From Williamsia sp. 1135 (lineage in GTDB: Bacteria; Actinomycetota; Actinomycetes; Mycobacteriales; Mycobacteriaceae), in assembly GCF_002095395.1 (NCBI RefSeq), contig NZ_MJEI01000075.1, positions 1-64,000 on the forward strand: a stretch of DNA of 64,000 nt, given 5' to 3'. Below the pieces are notes generated by a model that had not been told where the DNA came from, did no database searches, and was given only the letters and a program-made list of their open reading frames with translations. Shown here one piece after another: positions 143 through 58,156 of the stretch. The translations under genes were made by a program, and so were the position numbers. Positions within the stretch are counted from its first letter, which is position 1, and the number at the start of each line of letters is the position of its first letter.

Positions 143-1168
143 TCAGTTGGGTTTTGGTGACCATCCGAGCTTTGGTCCGAGATGGGTGGCGATGTCCGTG
201 ATGATCTGGAGGTAGTCGGCCTCGTCGAAGGAGAACGGCAGCGCGAAGGCGACCTCCTGCGCCCGCAGGAAGCCCGCATGGGAGAACAGGATCTCGGCGA
301 TTTCGTCGGACGATCCGACGATGTCCGGCGCGAACATCATCTGTCGCGGTCCTTGCGGCGACAATGTCCGGTCGAAGCGGGCCGCCGCGTACTCCTTGTA
401 TTTTCGGACCTGTTCCGCCGTTGCGGAGTCCGTGGGTATCACCACCAGACCCTGTGAGACGCGGGATTTTTCGGGGTGGGGATGATTGGCCCGGTACGCG
501 TCGATGTGCTGGCCTTGGATCGTCGCGAAGTCGCGAGAGTCGGTTCCCTCGGTGTTGACGACCGAACTGGTCAGATAGTTGAGCCCCTGGCGACCGGCCC
601 AGATGGCCGAGGAGAGCATGCCGCCGTACCAGAGCCGATCGATCAATCCGGGTGAGTGTGGCTGAACGATTCGGGAGAACTGCTCGATACCCACGGTGCC
701 CTCGAAGTCGCTCACCGGCACCCCACGGATGTGGTCCATCAGCCGCAGGACCCGATCCTTGCTGAAGTTCTCGAGGTCGTACGACTCCGGATACAGCTTG
801 GTCTTGAAGTCGTCGTACCGCATCGGCGTACCCACGGAGACGCCAGGATTGACCCGGCCGCCGGAGAGCAGGTCGACGGTCGCGAGGTCCTCGGCCAAGC
901 GCAGGGGGTTCTCGAGTCCGAGCGGGATGACCGCCGTGCCGAGTTCGATCCGCTTGGTGCGCTGGGTGGCAGCCGCCATGACCGCCACCGGAGACGAGAT
1001 CCCGTATTGAAGGTGCCGGTGTCGCAGCCACACGCTGTCGAAGCCGAGTTCTTCGGCCAGTTCGATGGTGCGCAGGGTCTCCTCGTGGCCGGTTCGCGGG
1101 TCCGCGGGGTCAAAGCGCCCGATGGTGAGAAAACCGAGTTTGTCGAGGGTCTGACCTGGCTGTGGCAT
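143..1168 (-). CDS. LLM-class flavin/F420-dependent oxidoreductase
   Basis: A 341-aa protein of the bacterial luciferase-like superfamily, a TIM-barrel fold that uses reduced FMN or F420 to oxidise or reduce small organic substrates. The family signature is visible in the N-terminal half: ELAEELGFDSVWLRHRH, then the strand/turn RIELGTAVIPLGLENPLRLAEDLATVDLLSGGRVNPGVSVG split over residues of about 70-115. The ATG has a good GGAGG seven bases upstream and starts 3 bp after the stop of the TetR gene, so the two are cotranscribed. The substrate cannot be read from sequence; the neighbouring phosphotransferase and 371-aa protein suggest a shared catabolic or detoxification route. FMN versus F420 is not decidable here. 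Confidence 0.9.
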   Translation of the reverse strand: MPQPGQTLDKLGFLTIGRFDPADPRTGHEETLRTIELAEELGFDSVWLRHRHLQYGISSPVAVMAAATQRTKRIELGTAVIPLGLENPLRLAEDLATVDLLSGGRVNPGVSVGTPMRYDDFKTKLYPESYDLENFSKDRVLRLMDHIRGVPVSDFEGTVGIEQFSRIVQPHSPGLIDRLWYGGMLSSAIWAGRQGLNYLTSSVVNTEGTDSRDFATIQGQHIDAYRANHPHPEKSRVSQGLVVIPTDSATAEQVRKYKEYAAARFDRTLSPQGPRQMMFAPDIVGSSDEIAEILFSHAGFLRAQEVAFALPFSFDEADYLQIITDIATHLGPKLGWSPKPN

Positions 1169-1171
1169 GTT

Positions 1172-4146
<2,975 letters not shown>

Positions 4147-50111: not shown

Positions 50112-51284
50112 ATGCCCCAACCCACCGACGTGCAGCCGTTCGAAGCGCGCGCGACCGACGCAGAGCTCGATGACTTGCGTACGCGATTGACCTCGGCACG
50201 CCTACCAGAGGCTGAAACGGTCAATCGCGCAGCGCCCGACCCTCGCCGATGGGATCAGGGTGTTCCGCTCACCGACCTCGTCGAGGTCGCCGACTACTGG
50301 CGCACCGGATACGACTGGCGGTCGTTCGAAGCGCGCCTGCACGGAATCGGCCAGTTCCGCACGGTCATCGACGGTTTGGGAATCCACTTCCTGCACCGCC
50401 GATCCTCGCGCCCAGACGCCACGGCTCTGATCGTGACGCACGGCTGGCCCGGAAGCATCACTGAGTTCATCGATGTGGTGGACGAGCTGGCGGATCCGAT
50501 GGACGCCGCCGCGCCCGCCTTCCACGTCGTGATCCCGTCCCTGCCCGGCTTCGGGTACAGCGACAAGCCGGCCACCACCGGCTGGGGCACCGAGAAGATC
50601 GCGGCAGCATGGGTCGAACTCATGGACAGGCTCGGCTACCGCAAATTCGTTGCCCACGGCGGCGACTGGGGAGGTGTGATCACCACGATCCTCGGTGGCA
50701 GATTCCCGTCACACGTTCTCGGCATCCACACAACGACCGCGCAGGCACCGCCTGGGTTGTCGATGGACGGGCTGACGGCGGCCGAACGCACATGGACTGA
50801 GGAAACCTCCGAGTTCAAACGGCATCGGGTGGCGTACGCAAAGCAGCAGGCGACCCGGCCGCAGACGATCGGCTACTCGCTTGTCGACTCGCCCGTTGGA
50901 CTCCTGGCCTGGATCCTCGACAAGTTCGCCGAGTGGACAGATACCCGAGACAGTCCATTCGAGACAATTTCCAGGGACCGGATTCTCGACAACGTCACTC
51001 TGTATTGGCTGACGCGGACAGGTGCGTCGTCGGCCCGCATCTACTACGAGAGCCACAATTCTCTCGATCCCGAACTACGGGTAGATGTTCCCTCCGCAAT
51101 CACTACGTATCCCCGCGACATCGAGAAGTCTCCGCGCCCGTGGGCGCAAGAGCGATTCCGGCAGATCGTTCGATGGAGGGCGCCCGAGACCGGGGGACAC
51201 TTCCCGTCACTCGAGGTTCCCGAGTATTTCGTCAAGGATCTACAGGAAGGTCTCGCAACAGTGTTGGCGGCCAACGGTCGGTGA
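50112..51284 (+). CDS. Epoxide hydrolase family protein
   Basis: A 390-aa alpha/beta hydrolase of the microsomal-type epoxide hydrolase family. The N-terminal EHN region (RATDAELDDLRTRLTSARLPE and DYWRTGYDWRSFEARLHGIGQF) is complete. LIVTHGWPGSITEFIDVV is the HGWPGS oxyanion motif, and KFVAHGGDWGGVITT holds the nucleophile Asp. The Tyr pair and the closing GGHFPSLEVPEYFVKDL provide lid and catalytic His. Opens epoxides to diols, for example from terpenoid or lipid oxidation. AGGAG precedes the ATG. The 3' end overlaps the convergent TetR gene by 53 bp. Confidence 0.92.
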   Translation: MPQPTDVQPFEARATDAELDDLRTRLTSARLPEAETVNRAAPDPRRWDQGVPLTDLVEVADYWRTGYDWRSFEARLHGIGQFRTVIDGLGIHFLHRRSSRPDATALIVTHGWPGSITEFIDVVDELADPMDAAAPAFHVVIPSLPGFGYSDKPATTGWGTEKIAAAWVELMDRLGYRKFVAHGGDWGGVITTILGGRFPSHVLGIHTTTAQAPPGLSMDGLTAAERTWTEETSEFKRHRVAYAKQQATRPQTIGYSLVDSPVGLLAWILDKFAEWTDTRDSPFETISRDRILDNVTLYWLTRTGASSARIYYESHNSLDPELRVDVPSAITTYPRDIEKSPRPWAQERFRQIVRWRAPETGGHFPSLEVPEYFVKDLQEGLATVLAANGR

Positions 51285-51858
51285 TCATCTCGGTCATCTC
51301 GGTCACCCATGTTTCGTCGAGGGCCGCATCTCGGCGAATCAGGATGCGGAAAATCGCCGTGCCCGCGACCACCTCGGCGAGCATCGGCAGCTGGTCATCG
51401 CCGCGGCGCTCCTGACCGAAGCGAGATTCGAAAGCTGTCAGGTTCCCGCCCAGTCTCGCGATCATCATGTTGTGGAGCTCCGGGTCGGCAACGGTGTCAG
51501 CGATCAGGCCCGGAAGAGCCAACCGCACCTCGGGTCGGTCGAAGATCACCCGGACGGTCTCGACCAAACCCCTTATCTCAGTGCGGATATCACCGGAACC
51601 GTCCGGCGTGGGGATCGCTTCGGCGAACAACACCGCTTCGTGAACGAGTTGCGCCTTGCCTGACCACCTCCGGTAGATCGCAGCTGTGGTCGTTCCGGCG
51701 CGGGCAGCGATCGCCGACAATGACAACGCGGAGTAACCCGTCTCGAGGATCAGTTCGCGAGTGGCCGCGATGATCGCGGCATCGATCCTGCCGTCGCGTG
51801 GCCGCCCCGGCGCGGACTGCGCCGACCTCTTGCCTTCGTTGCGGCTTTCTGCTGTCAT
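51232..51858 (-). CDS. TetR family regulator (paralogue of the 1172-1801 gene)
   Basis: A 208-aa TetR protein. HTH core [34 protein letters not shown] is nearly the same as in the TetR at 1172-1801, and both start with a charged tail ending in GRPRD. It is divergent from the second 371-aa gene, with a small dyad between, and so most likely represses that operon. Its last 17 codons are antisense to the end of the epoxide hydrolase gene. Confidence 0.9.
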   Translation of the reverse strand: MTAESRNEGKRSAQSAPGRPRDGRIDAAIIAATRELILETGYSALSLSAIAARAGTTTAAIYRRWSGKAQLVHEAVLFAEAIPTPDGSGDIRTEIRGLVETVRVIFDRPEVRLALPGLIADTVADPELHNMMIARLGGNLTAFESRFGQERRGDDQLPMLAEVVAGTAIFRILIRRDAALDETWVTEMTEMITDRWPPTLLRDLPVDP

Positions 51859-51865
51859 GACTCCA

Positions 51866-51880
51866 GTATAGTTCCAATAC
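51866..51880. promoter_or_regulatory. Weak dyad in the tetR/371-aa promoter (locus B)
   Basis: GTAT-AGTTCCA-ATAC has 4-bp inverted ends (GTAT/ATAC) in the 50-bp divergent gap, 8 bp before the tetR start. It is weaker than the operator in locus A and does not obviously share its sequence. Confidence 0.35.
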
Positions 51881-51908
51881 AGTGTGCATCGTATTTGAGG
51901 GAGAGCTT

Positions 51909-53024
51909 GTGAACCTGAGCGCGCTCGACGAGTATCCAATCCATCAGACGCCCGCGCCACTGACCTGGCCGGCCACCTCCGATCGAAACTTCTACGACCG
52001 GTCGTACTTCAACGTGCTCGACCGAGCCGGCCGCTTCATGGCGTTGACCGGAATCGGTTACTACCCGCGCCTCGGCGTCAAGGACGCCTATTTCGTCGTC
52101 CGCCGCGGGGACACGCAGACCGCCGTACACCTGAGTGACGCCATCGACGACGACCGCCTTCATCAGAACGTCAACGGTTACCGTCTCGACGTCATCGAGC
52201 CTTTGCAGCAGATGCACCTGACACTCGCGCCGACCGAGGGCATTTCCGCGGATCTCACCTGGCGCGGTCTGTTTCCCGCCGCACTGGAGAAGCCGCACGA
52301 AATGCTCACCGACCGGCGAGTGACGCTGCAGGCGAGTCGATTCGCCCAGGTCGGATCATGGCAGGGCTGGATCGACGTCGACGGCGAACGGCTGGAAGTC
52401 GACCATGACAGCAGTGTGGCGAGCCGCGACCGCTCATGGGGGATCCGACCTGTCGGTGAGGCCGAGCCGGCCGGTCGGCCGGATACCGCATTCCGCGGAA
52501 TGTGGTGGCTCTACCTACCGCTCGCTTTTGACGATTACCAACTGTTCTTGATCCTGCAAGAAGATCCCGACGGCCACCGTAGCCTCTATGACTGCACCCG
52601 CCGCTGGCGAGACGGCCGCGTCGAACAGCTCGACGGGGTGCGCGCCACCATCGACTATGCACCCGGAACGAGGATTCCTCGGGGCGCCCATGTGGATTTC
52701 ATGAACCGTGCAGGGGACCAGATCTCGTTGGACGTCGAATCGAAGTTGTTTGCACCCATCGCTTTCGGATCGGGCTACGGTGGCGACTCCTCGTGGGCGC
52801 ACGGAAGCTGGAAGGGCGGTCCGTTCGCCGAACGCGTGAGCTTCGACCTGACGGACCCGGAGGTGATGGCCCGAGCGCCGTTCAGTCTCATCGACCATAT
52901 CGGCGAGGCCGTGTGCACTGAAGCCGACGGAACGGTCAGCAAAGGCGCGGGTTTGTTCGAGCATGGCCTGATCGGCCCACACCACCCGTCGGGATTCTCC
53001 GACTGGACCGACGTGGCCAATTAG
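51909..53024 (+). CDS. 371-aa RDRSWGIRP protein, possibly lipocalin-like (copy B)
   Basis: Paralogue of 3031-4146: same length (371 aa) and roughly half the residues identical by eye, with DEYPIHQTP, SDRNFYDRSYFN, RRGD-QTAVHLSDAID, RFAQVG, RDRSWGIRP (173-181), GMWWLYLPL, SGYGGD and LFEHGLIGPHHPSGFSDW. GTG start with GAGGGAG just upstream fixes the N terminus; an upstream ATG would add nine residues absent in copy A. The beta-rich pattern and RDRSWGIRP recall AttH/CrtC double lipocalins, an unverified resemblance. The next gene follows after 10 bp, so it is the first gene of an operon with the oxidoreductase and PEP-synthase-like enzyme. Confidence 0.87.
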   Translation: MNLSALDEYPIHQTPAPLTWPATSDRNFYDRSYFNVLDRAGRFMALTGIGYYPRLGVKDAYFVVRRGDTQTAVHLSDAIDDDRLHQNVNGYRLDVIEPLQQMHLTLAPTEGISADLTWRGLFPAALEKPHEMLTDRRVTLQASRFAQVGSWQGWIDVDGERLEVDHDSSVASRDRSWGIRPVGEAEPAGRPDTAFRGMWWLYLPLAFDDYQLFLILQEDPDGHRSLYDCTRRWRDGRVEQLDGVRATIDYAPGTRIPRGAHVDFMNRAGDQISLDVESKLFAPIAFGSGYGGDSSWAHGSWKGGPFAERVSFDLTDPEVMARAPFSLIDHIGEAVCTEADGTVSKGAGLFEHGLIGPHHPSGFSDWTDVAN

Positions 53025-53034
53025 GCGCCCGGGG

Positions 53035-54030
53035 ATGAAAATCATGACAGCGCTGTTCGGTCCCACCGATGCGGTCGAACGCGCAGAAGTGCTCAAAGAA
53101 GCCGGCGCAGCCGGGGTGTTCACGTTCGAAGGACCGTTCGACGTTTTCACGCCGCTGGTGCTGGCGTCGTCCGTGAAGGGTCTCGACGTGATGTCGAATG
53201 TCGCGATCGCGTTTCCCCGCAACCCGATTCAGCTCGCACACCAAGCGAACGATCTGCAACTGCTGAGCGAAGGGCGTTTCATCCTGGGGCTGGGCACGCA
53301 GGTACGCGCACAGATCGAGAAGCGCTACGGGGCGGAGTTCGATCATCCGGTCGCCCGGATGAAAGAGATGGTGGGAGCGTTGCGAGCGATCTTCGCCACG
53401 TGGAATGAGGGGGAGCGGCTGGACTTCCGCGGAGAGTACTACCGCCACACCTTGATGACGCCCACCTTCGTGCCCGGGCCGAACCCGTTCGGACCGCCGC
53501 CGATCTATCTCGGCGCGCTCGGGCCTCGGTTGACCAAAGCCACGGCCGAAGTGGCCGACGGTCTGTTGGTGATGCCCTTCGGGACCAAGCGGTTCCTGCA
53601 CGAGACGACGCTCCCCGCCGTTCGCGACGGACTGTCTGCGGCCGGCCGCAGCGAAGATGACTTCGAAGTGGTGCCTGAGATCATCGTGTCGGTCGGAACC
53701 GGGCGAGACGACGACCACGCCTCGACTCGGATGTTGCTGGCGTTCTACGGCTCCACACCGGCCTACCGGCCGGTGCTCGACGCCCACGGCTGGGGCGATC
53801 TGCAGCCCGAACTCAACGCGATGTCCAAACAGGGCCGCTGGCAGGAGATGGCCGGCTTGATCGACGACGACATCCTGCACACCATCGCCGCATGCGGCAC
53901 GCCGTCCGAGGTGGCCTCGCACATCCGCGACCGTGTCGACGGGGTGTCGGACCGGATCTGCCTCTACCAACCGGGTCCCATTGAGGTTGAGGCCCTGGCC
54001 GAGATCGTGGACGCTTTGGGTGGATCATGA
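53035..54030 (+). CDS. LLM-class F420-dependent oxidoreductase (TIGR03617-like)
   Basis: A 331-aa luciferase-like oxidoreductase, F420-dependent by resemblance to the actinobacterial TIGR03617 group. It starts MKIMTALFGPTDAVERAEVLKEAGAAGVFTFEGPFDVFTPLVLA and contains VAIAFPRNPIQLAHQANDLQLLSEGRFILGLGTQVRAQIEKRYG (about 62-105), PIYLGALGPRLTKATAEVADGLLVMP, and the tail DGVSDRICLYQPG. It differs in subfamily from the oxidoreductase at 143-1168. The ATG is 10 bp after the 371-aa stop, and its own stop overlaps the next gene by 4 bp, so the three are one operon. Confidence 0.92.
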   Translation: MKIMTALFGPTDAVERAEVLKEAGAAGVFTFEGPFDVFTPLVLASSVKGLDVMSNVAIAFPRNPIQLAHQANDLQLLSEGRFILGLGTQVRAQIEKRYGAEFDHPVARMKEMVGALRAIFATWNEGERLDFRGEYYRHTLMTPTFVPGPNPFGPPPIYLGALGPRLTKATAEVADGLLVMPFGTKRFLHETTLPAVRDGLSAAGRSEDDFEVVPEIIVSVGTGRDDDHASTRMLLAFYGSTPAYRPVLDAHGWGDLQPELNAMSKQGRWQEMAGLIDDDILHTIAACGTPSEVASHIRDRVDGVSDRICLYQPGPIEVEALAEIVDALGGS

Positions 54031-56408
54031 TGCCGCTGCGATTGATCGAGTTCGACGACGTCAGCGACAACCGCTACGGCGGCAAAGCATCCGGTCTCGC
54101 CGAATTGCGCCGCCTCGGACTTCCGGTGCCGGTGGGATTTGTCATCGCCTACGCTTCCGAGCAGGTGACCGCCGGTGACGCCGGGGACTGGTTCGCGCGG
54201 ATGACCGCCGTCGGCGCTACTCCGGTGGCCGTCAGGTCCTCGGCAGTCGGTGAAGATGGTGACGATCAATCCTTTGCCGGGCAATACGATTCCGTGCTCG
54301 GTGTCGACTCCGTCGATCACTTCGTCCGAGCCATTCGCGCGTGCGCCGCCTCTGTGCATTCTCGGCGAGTCTCGTCGTACAGCGGACAACAGACCGCCAC
54401 CATGCATCTGGTGGTTCAGCAGATGGTGGACGCGCGCGCCGCGGGGGTGGTGTTCACCGCGGATCCGGCCACCGGCCGGCGCGACCTCATGGTCATCGAC
54501 GCCATTGCCGGACTCGGCGAAGCGCTCGTCGACGGCACCGCATCCCCGGACCATCTCGTCCTCGATATCGACGGCAGCCCCGCAGTCCGTGAGGTCGGTG
54601 GAACGCCGGTGTTGTCGACCGACGAGATCGCCGACATCCGGGCCGGTGCTTTACGTGCCGCAGAACACTGGGGCAGGCCCATGGACCTCGAGTGGGCGAT
54701 CGACCAATCCGGGACACTGTGGTGGCTGCAGGCCCGTCCGATCACCACGCTGCCCGGCGATCTGAACGAGATGGATTCGCCTCTCGCAGGGGAAGATCAC
54801 GTCTACACGCGCTGCAACATCGGAGAGATGATGCCGGGGGCATTCTGCCCGTTGACCGCATCGGTTTCCGGCTTCGCCATCGACTACGCGATGCAGATGA
54901 CCCAGGTGGTGGCGCGGGCGCAGCAGAGTTATCAGAAGCCATGGCTGCAGGTCGGCTATTTCCAAGGACACATGTTCTTGAACATGACCGAGGGGACAGG
55001 ACTGAGCTCAGGCCTCCTCGGCAACTCTCTAGAGCAGTTCTCGATTTCGATCTGCGGTCGGGTTGTCGACGAGCTGAAGCCCAAACCGCCGAAACCGTTC
55101 ATTGCGAAACTGATCAACACGGTTCGGCTCAGCACATACGCATTGTCCGCCGGTCCCGCGATCCGGCGCCTGCAGGACCAAATTGCCGAGTTCCGCATCC
55201 CGACCAGTGACGATCCGCGACTTGTGTTGCATGAGTTGGAATCTGGCGTCGAGCGGTATTGCGACATCACGCTGACTCACGTGCGGTCTTCGTCGCGCGC
55301 GGCAGTCGCGGCCAACATCCTCGAAGGCGTCTTGATGAAACAGGCGGTCAAGGCGGGACGTGGCGAGGACGAGGGGCGAGCCGACGCAACCCGGCTCATG
55401 GCCGGAGCATCCGAGGTCGAGAGTGCCCTCATGCTCGAAGAGCTCGACGCGGTGGTACACGCCGTGGCCGCCGACGCGGTGGCCGCCGAGATGTTCTTGG
55501 CCGCGACGCCGGGCACCGCCATCTCCGAGTTGCGAACCTCGGGCGACTCGATCAGTCAGGCGTTGGAGCAGTTCCTTGCTCGTCACGGCCACCGCGGGTA
55601 TCGAGAACTGTGTATGCGTGACCCATCGTGGGCGGAGGATCCAGAAGGGCTCGGTGCCATGATGCAGGTGATGGTGCGGTCGGCGCTCGATCCGACTACG
55701 ACCAGGCCGACCAGCATCGACGTCGAGGCGTCCACATCGTCTACCGTCAGGCTTCTTGCACGGTTGGCGCAGGGTGGCGCCCGCGGGCGCGAGGAGACCA
55801 AATCGAAGATGGCGCTGATGGCGCACTCGCTCAAGCTCGGTTACCGGCACCTCGGTGAGGTGCTGGCGAAGGAGGGACGACTGCCCGACTCGGATCTGGT
55901 GTTCTTCTTCGACCGTGCGGAACTGACCCGCATCGTCGGTTCGGAAGACGTCACCGGACTCGTCCAGAGCGCGGTGAAGCGTCGCGAAGCGCTGGCATTT
56001 CAGAGCTCTCTCGAGTTCGCCGATGTTTCTGTCGGGCGGCCCACCCCGCTGATCGCCCGTCCGCAACTTAGTGTCACCGGCGATGAGATCGTCGGCAGGC
56101 CCGCCAGCCGTGGTTCCGTGGAAGGCGTGGTGCGCGTGGCGAAATCGATCGTCGACGCGCGCCAAGTGCAGCGTGGTGAGATCCTGGTGGCCCCGGTCAC
56201 CGACGTGGGGTGGACGCCGTACTTCACGGTCATCGCTGCACTCGTCACCGATATCGGCAGCTCTGTGTCCCACGGTGCTGTGGTGGCGCGCGAGTACGGT
56301 CTGCCCTGCGTCGTGAACACCCTGGTCGCCACGCAGGCGCTCAAGACGGGCGATCGAGTTCGAGTGGACGGTGACCGAGGTGTGATCACGCGTCTCGATC
56401 GGCCCTGA
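54027..56408 (+). CDS. PEP-synthase / rifampicin-phosphotransferase-like enzyme
   Basis: A 793-aa three-part enzyme. Residues 1-250 are the ATP-grasp PEP/pyruvate-binding domain (NRYGGKASGLAELRRLGLPVP, VAVRSSAVGEDGDDQSFAGQY, PMDLEWAIDQSGTLWWLQARP). A long middle region of about 400 residues resembles the substrate domain of Rph rather than the PEP synthase barrel. The C-terminal swivelling phosphohistidine domain has GSSVSHGAVVAREYGLPCVV with His749. Such enzymes use ATP to phosphorylate the His and pass beta-phosphate to an acceptor, rifampicin in Rph or pyruvate in PpsA. The acceptor here is unknown. Coupled by 4-bp overlap to the F420 oxidoreductase. Confidence 0.87.
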   Translation: MMPLRLIEFDDVSDNRYGGKASGLAELRRLGLPVPVGFVIAYASEQVTAGDAGDWFARMTAVGATPVAVRSSAVGEDGDDQSFAGQYDSVLGVDSVDHFVRAIRACAASVHSRRVSSYSGQQTATMHLVVQQMVDARAAGVVFTADPATGRRDLMVIDAIAGLGEALVDGTASPDHLVLDIDGSPAVREVGGTPVLSTDEIADIRAGALRAAEHWGRPMDLEWAIDQSGTLWWLQARPITTLPGDLNEMDSPLAGEDHVYTRCNIGEMMPGAFCPLTASVSGFAIDYAMQMTQVVARAQQSYQKPWLQVGYFQGHMFLNMTEGTGLSSGLLGNSLEQFSISICGRVVDELKPKPPKPFIAKLINTVRLSTYALSAGPAIRRLQDQIAEFRIPTSDDPRLVLHELESGVERYCDITLTHVRSSSRAAVAANILEGVLMKQAVKAGRGEDEGRADATRLMAGASEVESALMLEELDAVVHAVAADAVAAEMFLAATPGTAISELRTSGDSISQALEQFLARHGHRGYRELCMRDPSWAEDPEGLGAMMQVMVRSALDPTTTRPTSIDVEASTSSTVRLLARLAQGGARGREETKSKMALMAHSLKLGYRHLGEVLAKEGRLPDSDLVFFFDRAELTRIVGSEDVTGLVQSAVKRREALAFQSSLEFADVSVGRPTPLIARPQLSVTGDEIVGRPASRGSVEGVVRVAKSIVDARQVQRGEILVAPVTDVGWTPYFTVIAALVTDIGSSVSHGAVVAREYGLPCVVNTLVATQALKTGDRVRVDGDRGVITRLDRP

Positions 56409-56551: not shown

Positions 56552-58156
56552 ATGACAGTCGCTGCAGACTCGACCAGCGAGGTCCTCCTCGAACCGATGC
56601 GCTCGAGTCGAAATACCTGGAACACCCAGGTACGACGACACGCTCTGATGACACCAGATGAGATCGCCGTCAAATATCTCGGTGCCGCAACCACCTGGCG
56701 TGACCTCGACGACCGATCGCACCGCTTTGCCGCGGCTCTGCAACACCGCGGCGTCCATTTCGGCGACCGTATCTTGATCGCGTTGCTCAATCGAACCGAA
56801 TACGTCGAGGCGGTGCTCGGAGCGAATCTGATCGGCGCGATCCCGGTCCCTGTCAACATCCGCATGAGCCCGGCCGAGGTGGGCTACCTGGTTCAGGACA
56901 GTGGCGCCAGGATCATTCTCACCGAACGACTTCTTGCACCGCTCGCAGATGCGGTGCGAGCGTCCACGGGCACCATCGACACCACCATCGTCGTAGACGC
57001 CGGAGACAGCGCCGATCACCTCGACTACGAGACGTTCCTCGCGCAGGATCCCGTTGAGCCGGCAGAAGTCGATATTCCTGAAGACACCGTGGCCCTCATC
57101 ATGTACACCTCGGGAACCACCGGAAAGCCCAAGGGCGCCATGCTGACCCACGCCAACCTGCAATCGCAGGCGATGACGACGATTAATGCATCTGATGGCA
57201 AGCCGGGTGACATTGCCTCGGTCGTGCCCCCGATCTTCCATATCGCGGGCATCGCCGCCTTCGCTCCGGTCTTCTATCGCGGCATCCGGGCGGTCATCCA
57301 TCCACTCGGCGCGTTCGACCCGGACGACATGCTCGACACCTTGGAGCGTGAAGGCACGACATCGGTATTCATGGTGCCCGCCCAGTGGCAGGCGGTCTGC
57401 GCTGCCCAAAGGGCCAAGCCCCGCCACCTGAAGCTGCGGACTATCAGTTGGGGAGCTGCGCCGGCTCCCGATACCGTGCTCGAAGAGATGAATGAACTGT
57501 TCCCCGAAGCACTCAACATGACTGCATTCGGGCAAACCGAGATGTCGCCGGTCACAACCCTTCTCGAGGGTCAGGACGCCATTCGGAAGATTGGGTCGAT
57601 CGGCAAAGTGGTGCCCGCGGTGACTGCCCGAATCGTCGATCCTCTGATGGAGGACGTCAAACCCGGCGAGGTCGGCGAAATCGTCTATCGCGGGCCCAAT
57701 CTGATGAAAGGCTACTGGCGGAATCCACAGGCGACGGCAGATGCGTTCCGGGGCGGCTGGTTCCATTCCGGCGATCTGGTTCGGCAAGACGACGAGGGTT
57801 TTCTGTACGTGGTCGACAGAGCCAAAGACATGATCATCTCCGGTGGAGAGAACATCTACTGCGCCGAAGTCGAGAACGTGCTCTACAGCCATCCTGCCAT
57901 CGCCGAAGCCGCCATCATCGGCCGGGCGCATCCGAAATGGGGTGAGGTGCCGGTTGCAGTAGTCGTTTTGGCTGAGGGCACCAACTCGCTCACACTCGAC
58001 GACCTGGGACCTCACCTCGACGAGAACTTGGCGCGCTTCAAACACCCCAAGGACCTCATCGTCGTCGACGAACTACCACGCAATCCCGGTGGCAAGGTCG
58101 TCAAACCCAAACTCCGCGATGCGTACGGCAGTAAGGACGCCGGTCTGACTCATTGA
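56552..58156 (+). CDS. Acyl-CoA synthetase (AMP-binding)
   Basis: A 534-aa AMP-forming ligase. P-loop IMYTSGTTGKPKGAMLTHAN (about 184-203), FGQTEMSPVTTLLEG, hinge GGWFHSGDLVRQDDEGFLYVVDRAKDMIISGGENIYCAEVE and catalytic Lys in NPGGKVVKPKLRD. The N terminus (NTWNTQVRRHALMTPDEIAVKYLG) is that of FadD-type aliphatic or aromatic acid CoA ligases. It begins 143 bp after the PEP-synthase-like gene, with GGGGAT before the ATG; it may belong to the same pathway by activating the carboxylic acid product. Confidence 0.92.
   Translation: MTVAADSTSEVLLEPMRSSRNTWNTQVRRHALMTPDEIAVKYLGAATTWRDLDDRSHRFAAALQHRGVHFGDRILIALLNRTEYVEAVLGANLIGAIPVPVNIRMSPAEVGYLVQDSGARIILTERLLAPLADAVRASTGTIDTTIVVDAGDSADHLDYETFLAQDPVEPAEVDIPEDTVALIMYTSGTTGKPKGAMLTHANLQSQAMTTINASDGKPGDIASVVPPIFHIAGIAAFAPVFYRGIRAVIHPLGAFDPDDMLDTLEREGTTSVFMVPAQWQAVCAAQRAKPRHLKLRTISWGAAPAPDTVLEEMNELFPEALNMTAFGQTEMSPVTTLLEGQDAIRKIGSIGKVVPAVTARIVDPLMEDVKPGEVGEIVYRGPNLMKGYWRNPQATADAFRGGWFHSGDLVRQDDEGFLYVVDRAKDMIISGGENIYCAEVENVLYSHPAIAEAAIIGRAHPKWGEVPVAVVVLAEGTNSLTLDDLGPHLDENLARFKHPKDLIVVDELPRNPGGKVVKPKLRDAYGSKDAGLTH

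Follow-up and report, generated by a model that had tools for sequence, protein, structure and literature searches.

Two described systems are close to the genes considered here. In Sterolibacterium denitrificans a 25-hydroxysteroid kinase is described as phosphorylating the tertiary C25 position, after which a lyase eliminates the phosphate to leave an alkene (PMC8449060, PMC7411048); the kinase is reported as ADP-forming and fully reversible, with an equilibrium constant (Keq) of 0.34 (PMC8449060). In Mycobacterium tuberculosis the regulator Rv3167c represses the Rv3168-Rv3169 operon, and in an Rv3167c mutant this operon is reported to be strongly derepressed and the output of phthiocerol dimycocerosate (PDIM) raised (PMC5340868). 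A third relevant group is formed by the relatives of the rifampicin phosphotransferases (Rph), which the Rph paper presents as a large unexplored group of dikinases (PMC4844700). Here we analyse 64,000 nucleotides of Williamsia sp. 1135 (contig NZ_MJEI01000075.1, positions 1 to 64,000; hereafter the window), in which two loci each hold a gene for a 371-amino-acid (aa) protein of the Rv3169 family together with a kinase gene of an unrelated family: an APH-fold kinase in locus A and, in locus B, a 793-aa protein of Rph architecture. We conclude that the 793-aa protein is probably a one-chain dikinase that phosphorylates a hydroxyl group, from which the Rv3169-family partner then eliminates the phosphate to give an alkene.

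Judged by its three gene types and their arrangement, locus A is the counterpart of Rv3167c-Rv3168-Rv3169. Its kinase is APH-like, as in S. denitrificans, with matches in the PDB to 3ats (which we take to be Rv3168; it is listed in the PDB table as a putative uncharacterized protein), to 9fsg (presumably the Sterolibacterium 25-hydroxysteroid kinase) and also to ACAD11. Locus B resembles the M. tuberculosis operon in its TetR and Rv3169 types, but whereas Rv3168 has the APH fold, locus B carries a dikinase and an enzyme of the luciferase-like monooxygenase (LLM) class. With S. denitrificans the window has in common a lyase homologue with the same motif; the kinase of locus B, in contrast, is unrelated to the steroid kinase and predicted to be an AMP-forming dikinase. 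In the window the genes for kinase and lyase are neighbours, whereas around the kinase gene of S. denitrificans the 2021 paper saw no candidate for the lyase (PMC8449060). HpeHI, CreHI and phenylphosphate synthase perform dikinase chemistry on small catabolic substrates, as is predicted for the 793-aa protein, but they have two subunits and phenolic substrates, while locus B has one chain and a lyase partner. The parts are of known kinds and their combination is apparently unreported: our literature search found nothing tying an Rph-type dikinase to a phosphosteroid lyase and nothing naming a function for Rv3169.

Architecture and relatives of the 793-aa protein

The protein consists of an ATP-grasp domain (approximately residues 1-245), a middle substrate domain (~250-680) and a swivelling phospho-His domain (~687-793) with His749; Pfam recognises PPDK_N and a C-terminal PEP-utilizers domain at 715-785. 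An earlier reading of the window from its letters only (the sequence-only reading) had judged the His and ATP-grasp domains intact, and conservation bears this out. A 45-row alignment of relatives shows no change in His749, the ATP-grasp residues or any other key residue (45/45). A second alignment has the counterparts of Lys22, Arg117, Arg666, Glu667, Lys670 and His825 in 26/26 family members and 11/11 true Rph. The alignment of the middle domain with Rph, which that reading had proposed, gave a divided answer: the block-9 Arg/Glu/Lys of Rph are retained as Arg588, Glu589 and Lys592, whereas the block-1 Gln337 position holds Glu in 26/26 family members, Glu267 in the 793-aa protein, and Gln in 11/11 true Rph. 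The roles of these residues, including the contact of the block-1 Gln to the phosphate of phosphorylated rifampicin (RIF-P), are as presented in PMC4844700.

The predicted model of the protein (predicted local distance difference test, pLDDT, 85.5; predicted template modelling score, pTM, 0.83) has RPH-Lm, of Rph clade A, as its top Foldseek match, and RPH-Lm is also the nearest solved structure by sequence. VIA-align 2 matched the model to RPH-Lm (5hv1) end to end (Z 28.8, root-mean-square deviation 4.7, 716 residues), but to phosphoenolpyruvate (PEP) synthase over 232 residues only. The protein thus resembles RPH-Lm in domain order, in its end-to-end predicted fold, in the catalytic His and in the Arg/Glu/Lys block, and differs from it in clade, in sequence (~22-26% identity), in the block-1 Glu, in a shorter ATP-grasp N-terminus and in its linkage to a lyase operon.

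Membership in the characterised families was rejected in each case. The NCBIfam model for Rph (NF041857) scores 229 bits against a cut-off of 999, and in a 46-row tree the actinobacterial family (17 rows) and Rph (11 rows) form separate clades, each 100*, so that, on the tree check that had been proposed, the family falls outside Rph. RedH (278 bits, cut-off 1350) and PigC (275 bits, cut-off 1300) are far below their equivalog cut-offs. An ordinary PEP synthase (PpsA) had been named as the outcome that would overturn the sequence-only reading; the protein has no pyruvate/PEP-binding barrel, its swivel domain is C-terminal (715-785 of 793), and TIGR01418 gives 206 bits against 740. This exclusion is based on architecture and score, the tree being made without PpsA and without characterised PigC, HpeH or zearalenone kinase sequences; both of our quick maximum-likelihood trees, this one and the lyase tree below, give long-branch warnings. 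A two-component dikinase of the HpeHI/CreHI type was likewise rejected, the ATP-grasp domain lying on the same 793-aa chain. In the Dietzia-type loci L035, L040 and L146 the dikinase match is ~90-140 bases longer than that of the window.

The 371-aa partners

Both 371-aa proteins belong to the Rv3169 family (NF053593, cut-off 150), with 481 bits in locus A and 443 in locus B, and both match the PDB entries for 25-phosphosteroid lyase (9fzn, 9g2i, 9g4c) over most of their length, at E 4.4e-70 and 5.9e-60 respectively. The SRDRSW motif of 9g4c has Asn in the printed alignments where 9fzn has Asp, and 9g4c is presumably a catalytic variant; the motif Asp is kept in 106/106 ungapped rows of the Rv3169-family alignment, whose rows are copies spanning >85% of the profile. 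In locus B this is Asp174 of SRDRSWG when counted from the start at 51909, or 175 in the 372-residue reading from 51906. Phosphate elimination is therefore what homology predicts for these proteins, which we call lyases below.

Linkage and co-occurrence of dikinase and lyase

One search found 244 relatives, of which the best 80 were kept and used; orthologues (E <= 1e-100) are present in 41/301 genomes of the window's own family. Forty regions around the dikinase gene contain an Rv3169-family match in 36 cases and a match to LLM_B, the LLM-class enzyme of locus B, in 37. Among 59 named actinobacterial loci, which share some genomes with these regions, a full-span lyase adjoins the dikinase in 48 (44 upstream, 4 downstream), although one of them, in L143, passes the span test without its middle and fills 45% of the tree columns. 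LLM_B lies <=4 kb from the dikinase in 48/59, a divergent TetR-like match is present in 56/59, and an APH-type kinase stands next to the dikinase in 0/59. In a distant member from another family of the phylum (G481, 41% identity), a lyase homologue is likewise immediately downstream of the dikinase. In Halioglobus pacificus (L190) sulfatase-like genes, judged by eye from translations, flank the dikinase on both sides.

The two kinases had been said to occupy equivalent positions. In the window this does not hold, as the kinase is the first gene of operon A and the third of operon B, but in other genera it does: a PPDK-like gene sits in the APH slot in L101, L102, L168, L169, L170 and L173, and the corresponding order TetR, dikinase, lyase is found in L101, L102, Nocardioides, Actinomadura, Spirillospora and a Propionibacteriales metagenome-assembled genome. 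In the 30 best-scoring A-type loci, which are not a random sample, the APH gene is immediately upstream of the lyase in every case, and an LLM_B orthologue is beside the pair in seven. On a lyase tree of 79 rows, from which near-identical rows were dropped, the dikinase-partner label needs three parsimony changes, at least two of them forced by starred branches, a count that we hold with lower confidence.

Lyase and dikinase also occur together at the level of genomes. In Halieaceae the lyase is present in 33/34 genomes with the dikinase and in 32/106 without it (Fisher p 7e-13), and in the window's own family in 39/41 versus 168/260 (Fisher p 1.5e-5), both values being uncorrected for shared ancestry. 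Where the dikinase has no intact adjacent lyase, a lyase is encoded elsewhere in 21 of 22 genomes; this search did not cover L192, and the lyase counted for L196 is the copy ~3 kb from the dikinase. Twelve hand-picked (not random) dikinase genomes were searched for the Rv3168-type kinase, and five (G051, G111, G094, G481 and G169) had no match at 1e-40. Each of the first four encodes only one lyase, and a lyase homologue neighbours the dikinase in the regions that were fetched; G169 is also without lyase.

Gene content of the two loci

Coordinates are collected in Table 1. In locus A the kinase gene overlaps the 371-aa gene by 4 bases; in locus B, 10 bases separate the 371-aa gene from the LLM gene, and the last 4 bases of the LLM gene are shared with the start of the 793-aa gene. 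From this spacing each 371-aa gene is expected to be cotranscribed with its kinase, and the sequence-only reading was right that the two partner kinases, APH fold (PF01636) and Rph architecture, are of unrelated families.

Table 1. Features of loci A and B in the window (positions 1 to 64,000)
Feature	Position	Strand	Basis
Locus A: divergent TetR-type regulator, ATG 1801	1172..1801	-	TetR name via tblastn match to locus B TetR in relatives
Locus A: inverted repeat, TetR/kinase gap	1800..1824	.	printed sequence
Locus A: APH-fold kinase, Rv3168 type	1871..3034	+	PF01636; PDB 3ats E 1.6e-174, 9fsg E 5.2e-79
Locus A: 371-aa Rv3169-family protein, lyase homologue	3031..4146	+	NF053593 481 bits; PDB 9fzn E 4.4e-70
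Locus B: TetR-family regulator, divergent, likely ATG 51858	51235..51858	-	PF00440
Locus B: candidate operator AATAC-N10-GTATT, short gap TetR/lyase gene	51876..51895	.	read by eye, +/- few bases
Locus B: 371-aa Rv3169-family protein, 25-phosphosteroid lyase homologue	51909..53024	+	GTG 51909; NF053593, PDB 9fzn
Locus B: LLM-class (F420-type) oxidoreductase, TIGR03617 family	53035..54030	+	455 bits vs cut-off 278
Locus B: Rph-type dikinase, single chain, 793 aa	54027..56408	+	ATG start, 0 internal stops
Locus B: FadD5-like acyl-CoA ligase, 143 bases 3' of dikinase	56552..58156	+	NF005857 763 bits vs 733

The AATAC-N10-GTATT repeat of locus B is exact in 7/12 other printed loci and has 1-2 changes in the remaining five, which is consistent with a role as operator. 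The inverted repeat of locus A may have such a role by analogy with the Rv3167c palindrome described in PMC5340868; the two candidate operators have only a short ATCGTA stretch in common. Beyond the TetR gene of locus A lies a second, different LLM-class enzyme (143-1168, minus strand), and an LLM_A fragment adjoins the locus A counterpart in L062. The FadD5-like ligase is a lineage-specific neighbour, found immediately 3' of the dikinase in some Williamsia-type loci only. The label of L131, Kitasatospora arboriphila NRRL B-24581, is probably wrong, its contig pointing to a Williamsia-type genome (G092). In PMC8449060 the enriched Sterolibacterium kinase fraction is reported to contain luciferase-type and acyl-CoA synthetase proteins, the classes of two neighbours in locus B, which may be coincidence. 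Steroid catabolism was rejected as a proven context: among 20 further open reading frames of the window there were, besides other types, transporters, acyl-CoA ligases and a wax-ester synthase, and no steroid-ring cluster was recognised.

Proposed reaction and alternatives

In the reaction that we propose, ATP would charge His749 in the ATP-grasp site, and the swivel domain would carry the phosphate to the middle domain, with its Arg588/Glu589/Lys592. The hydroxyl would belong to a small, lipophilic metabolite, and a tertiary alcohol of isoprenoid or steroid type is the likeliest acceptor; the products would be the phosphorylated substrate, AMP and inorganic phosphate (Pi). The Rv3169-family partner of the operon would then eliminate the phosphate to give an alkene, the pair forming an ATP-dependent dehydratase, and the LLM-class enzyme probably works on the same compound, before or after, and could reduce the alkene or form the alcohol. 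The equivalent step in locus A, and likewise in the Rv3168-Rv3169 pair of M. tuberculosis, would fall to the unrelated ADP-forming APH-fold kinase. The suggestion of the sequence-only reading that non-homologous kinases phosphorylate a hydroxyl in equivalent steps gains support because both 371-aa partners are homologous to 25-phosphosteroid lyase, because the dikinase takes the APH slot in other genera, because some genomes hold the lyase without an Rv3168-type kinase and because lyase and dikinase co-occur in two phyla. The swap may have a thermodynamic reason, as we infer from the ADP-forming reaction being near equilibrium.

Several observations weigh against this reading. In proteobacterial loci a recognised lyase is directly adjacent to the dikinase in 0/21 and within 6 kb in 2/21. 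In two of the Spongiibacteraceae, Zhongshania and Neomelitea (L199:8353-9345 and L202:8363-9364), the dikinase and an LLM_B homologue are separated by a DUF7065-like gene for 331-333 aa; its product has an RDHSWG motif and a weak match to the Rv3169 profile (hhalign probability 87.8, E 3.3e-6, 148 columns) and is possibly a very divergent lyase, although it gave 0 PDB matches by sequence and an unusable predicted model (pLDDT 33). In several other loci (L109, L143, L159, L177) the lyase gene next to the dikinase is absent or damaged. These four, with L172, L104 and L110, retain LLM and dikinase while the Rv3169-type gene is lost or disrupted (the LLM being cut short in L109), and most of the checked genomes of this group hold a lyase copy elsewhere. 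The dikinase is also encoded by the Dietzia-type genomes G169 and G247, in which the Rv3169 search gave nothing at 1e-40, and the co-occurrence counts ignore shared ancestry. Moreover, 25-phosphosteroid lyase is the molecule name of PDB entries, and our literature search found no paper describing the purified lyase. Finally, many carriers also have the APH-type pair, and the two kinases may then act on different compounds.

This last point leads to the alternative that the dikinase belongs to the same pathway but serves another step or substrate, such as a phenol or enol, the lyase being fed by the APH kinase of locus A. An APH-type kinase is indeed also present in 7/12 of the dikinase genomes searched, some loci have lost the lyase yet keep LLM and dikinase, and the related two-component dikinases are described as acting on phenols (PMC12167813). 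Nevertheless we consider it unlikely, given the four genomes (G051, G111, G094, G481) whose single lyase adjoins the dikinase and in which no APH gene was matched at 1e-40, and the several genera in which the dikinase itself fills the APH slot. An antibiotic phosphotransferase, inactivating rifamycins or other drugs as Rph does, had been offered by the sequence-only reading as its second option and is now very improbable: the three-domain architecture, the block-9 residues and the solved structures closest in sequence and in fold all point to Rph, but the low Rph score, the separate clade and the Glu that replaces the block-1 Gln throughout the family point away from it, as does the conserved operon context, which includes a lyase homologue and an LLM enzyme. 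In addition, the Rph authors report that a distant member of the clade gave no rifampicin resistance (PMC4844700). We give equally little credence to a ligase of the PigC/RedH type, in which phosphorylation would drive a condensation instead of phosphoester release; the RedH and PigC scores are slightly above that for Rph, yet far under their own cut-offs, three sub-cut-off RedH-like rows have Arg at the position of Lys592 of the 793-aa family and Rph, and no gene for a condensation partner was recognised near the dikinase in the Pfam and NCBIfam scans.

Implications

The sequential action of dikinase and lyase can be extended to a broader reading, which we regard as possible and put forward tentatively: removal of tertiary hydroxyls by the dikinase-lyase pair would be a widespread aerobic pathway, the same chemistry would be the function of Rv3169, and the dikinase would have replaced the APH kinase for thermodynamic reasons, since a tertiary phosphoester is as energy-rich as ATP (as the Keq indicates). 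AMP-forming chemistry and release of the second phosphate would then pull the step forward.

For one large dikinase clade, found across Actinomycetota and Gammaproteobacteria, the proposal supplies a concrete and testable reaction, and for Rv3168-Rv3169 of M. tuberculosis a testable function. If true, it would amount to a clear-cut exchange of non-homologous kinases ahead of one conserved lyase, possibly for thermodynamic reasons. Thus it suggests what a widespread family of uncharacterised kinases may do, and likewise a gene pair that Williamsia shares with the tuberculosis bacterium.

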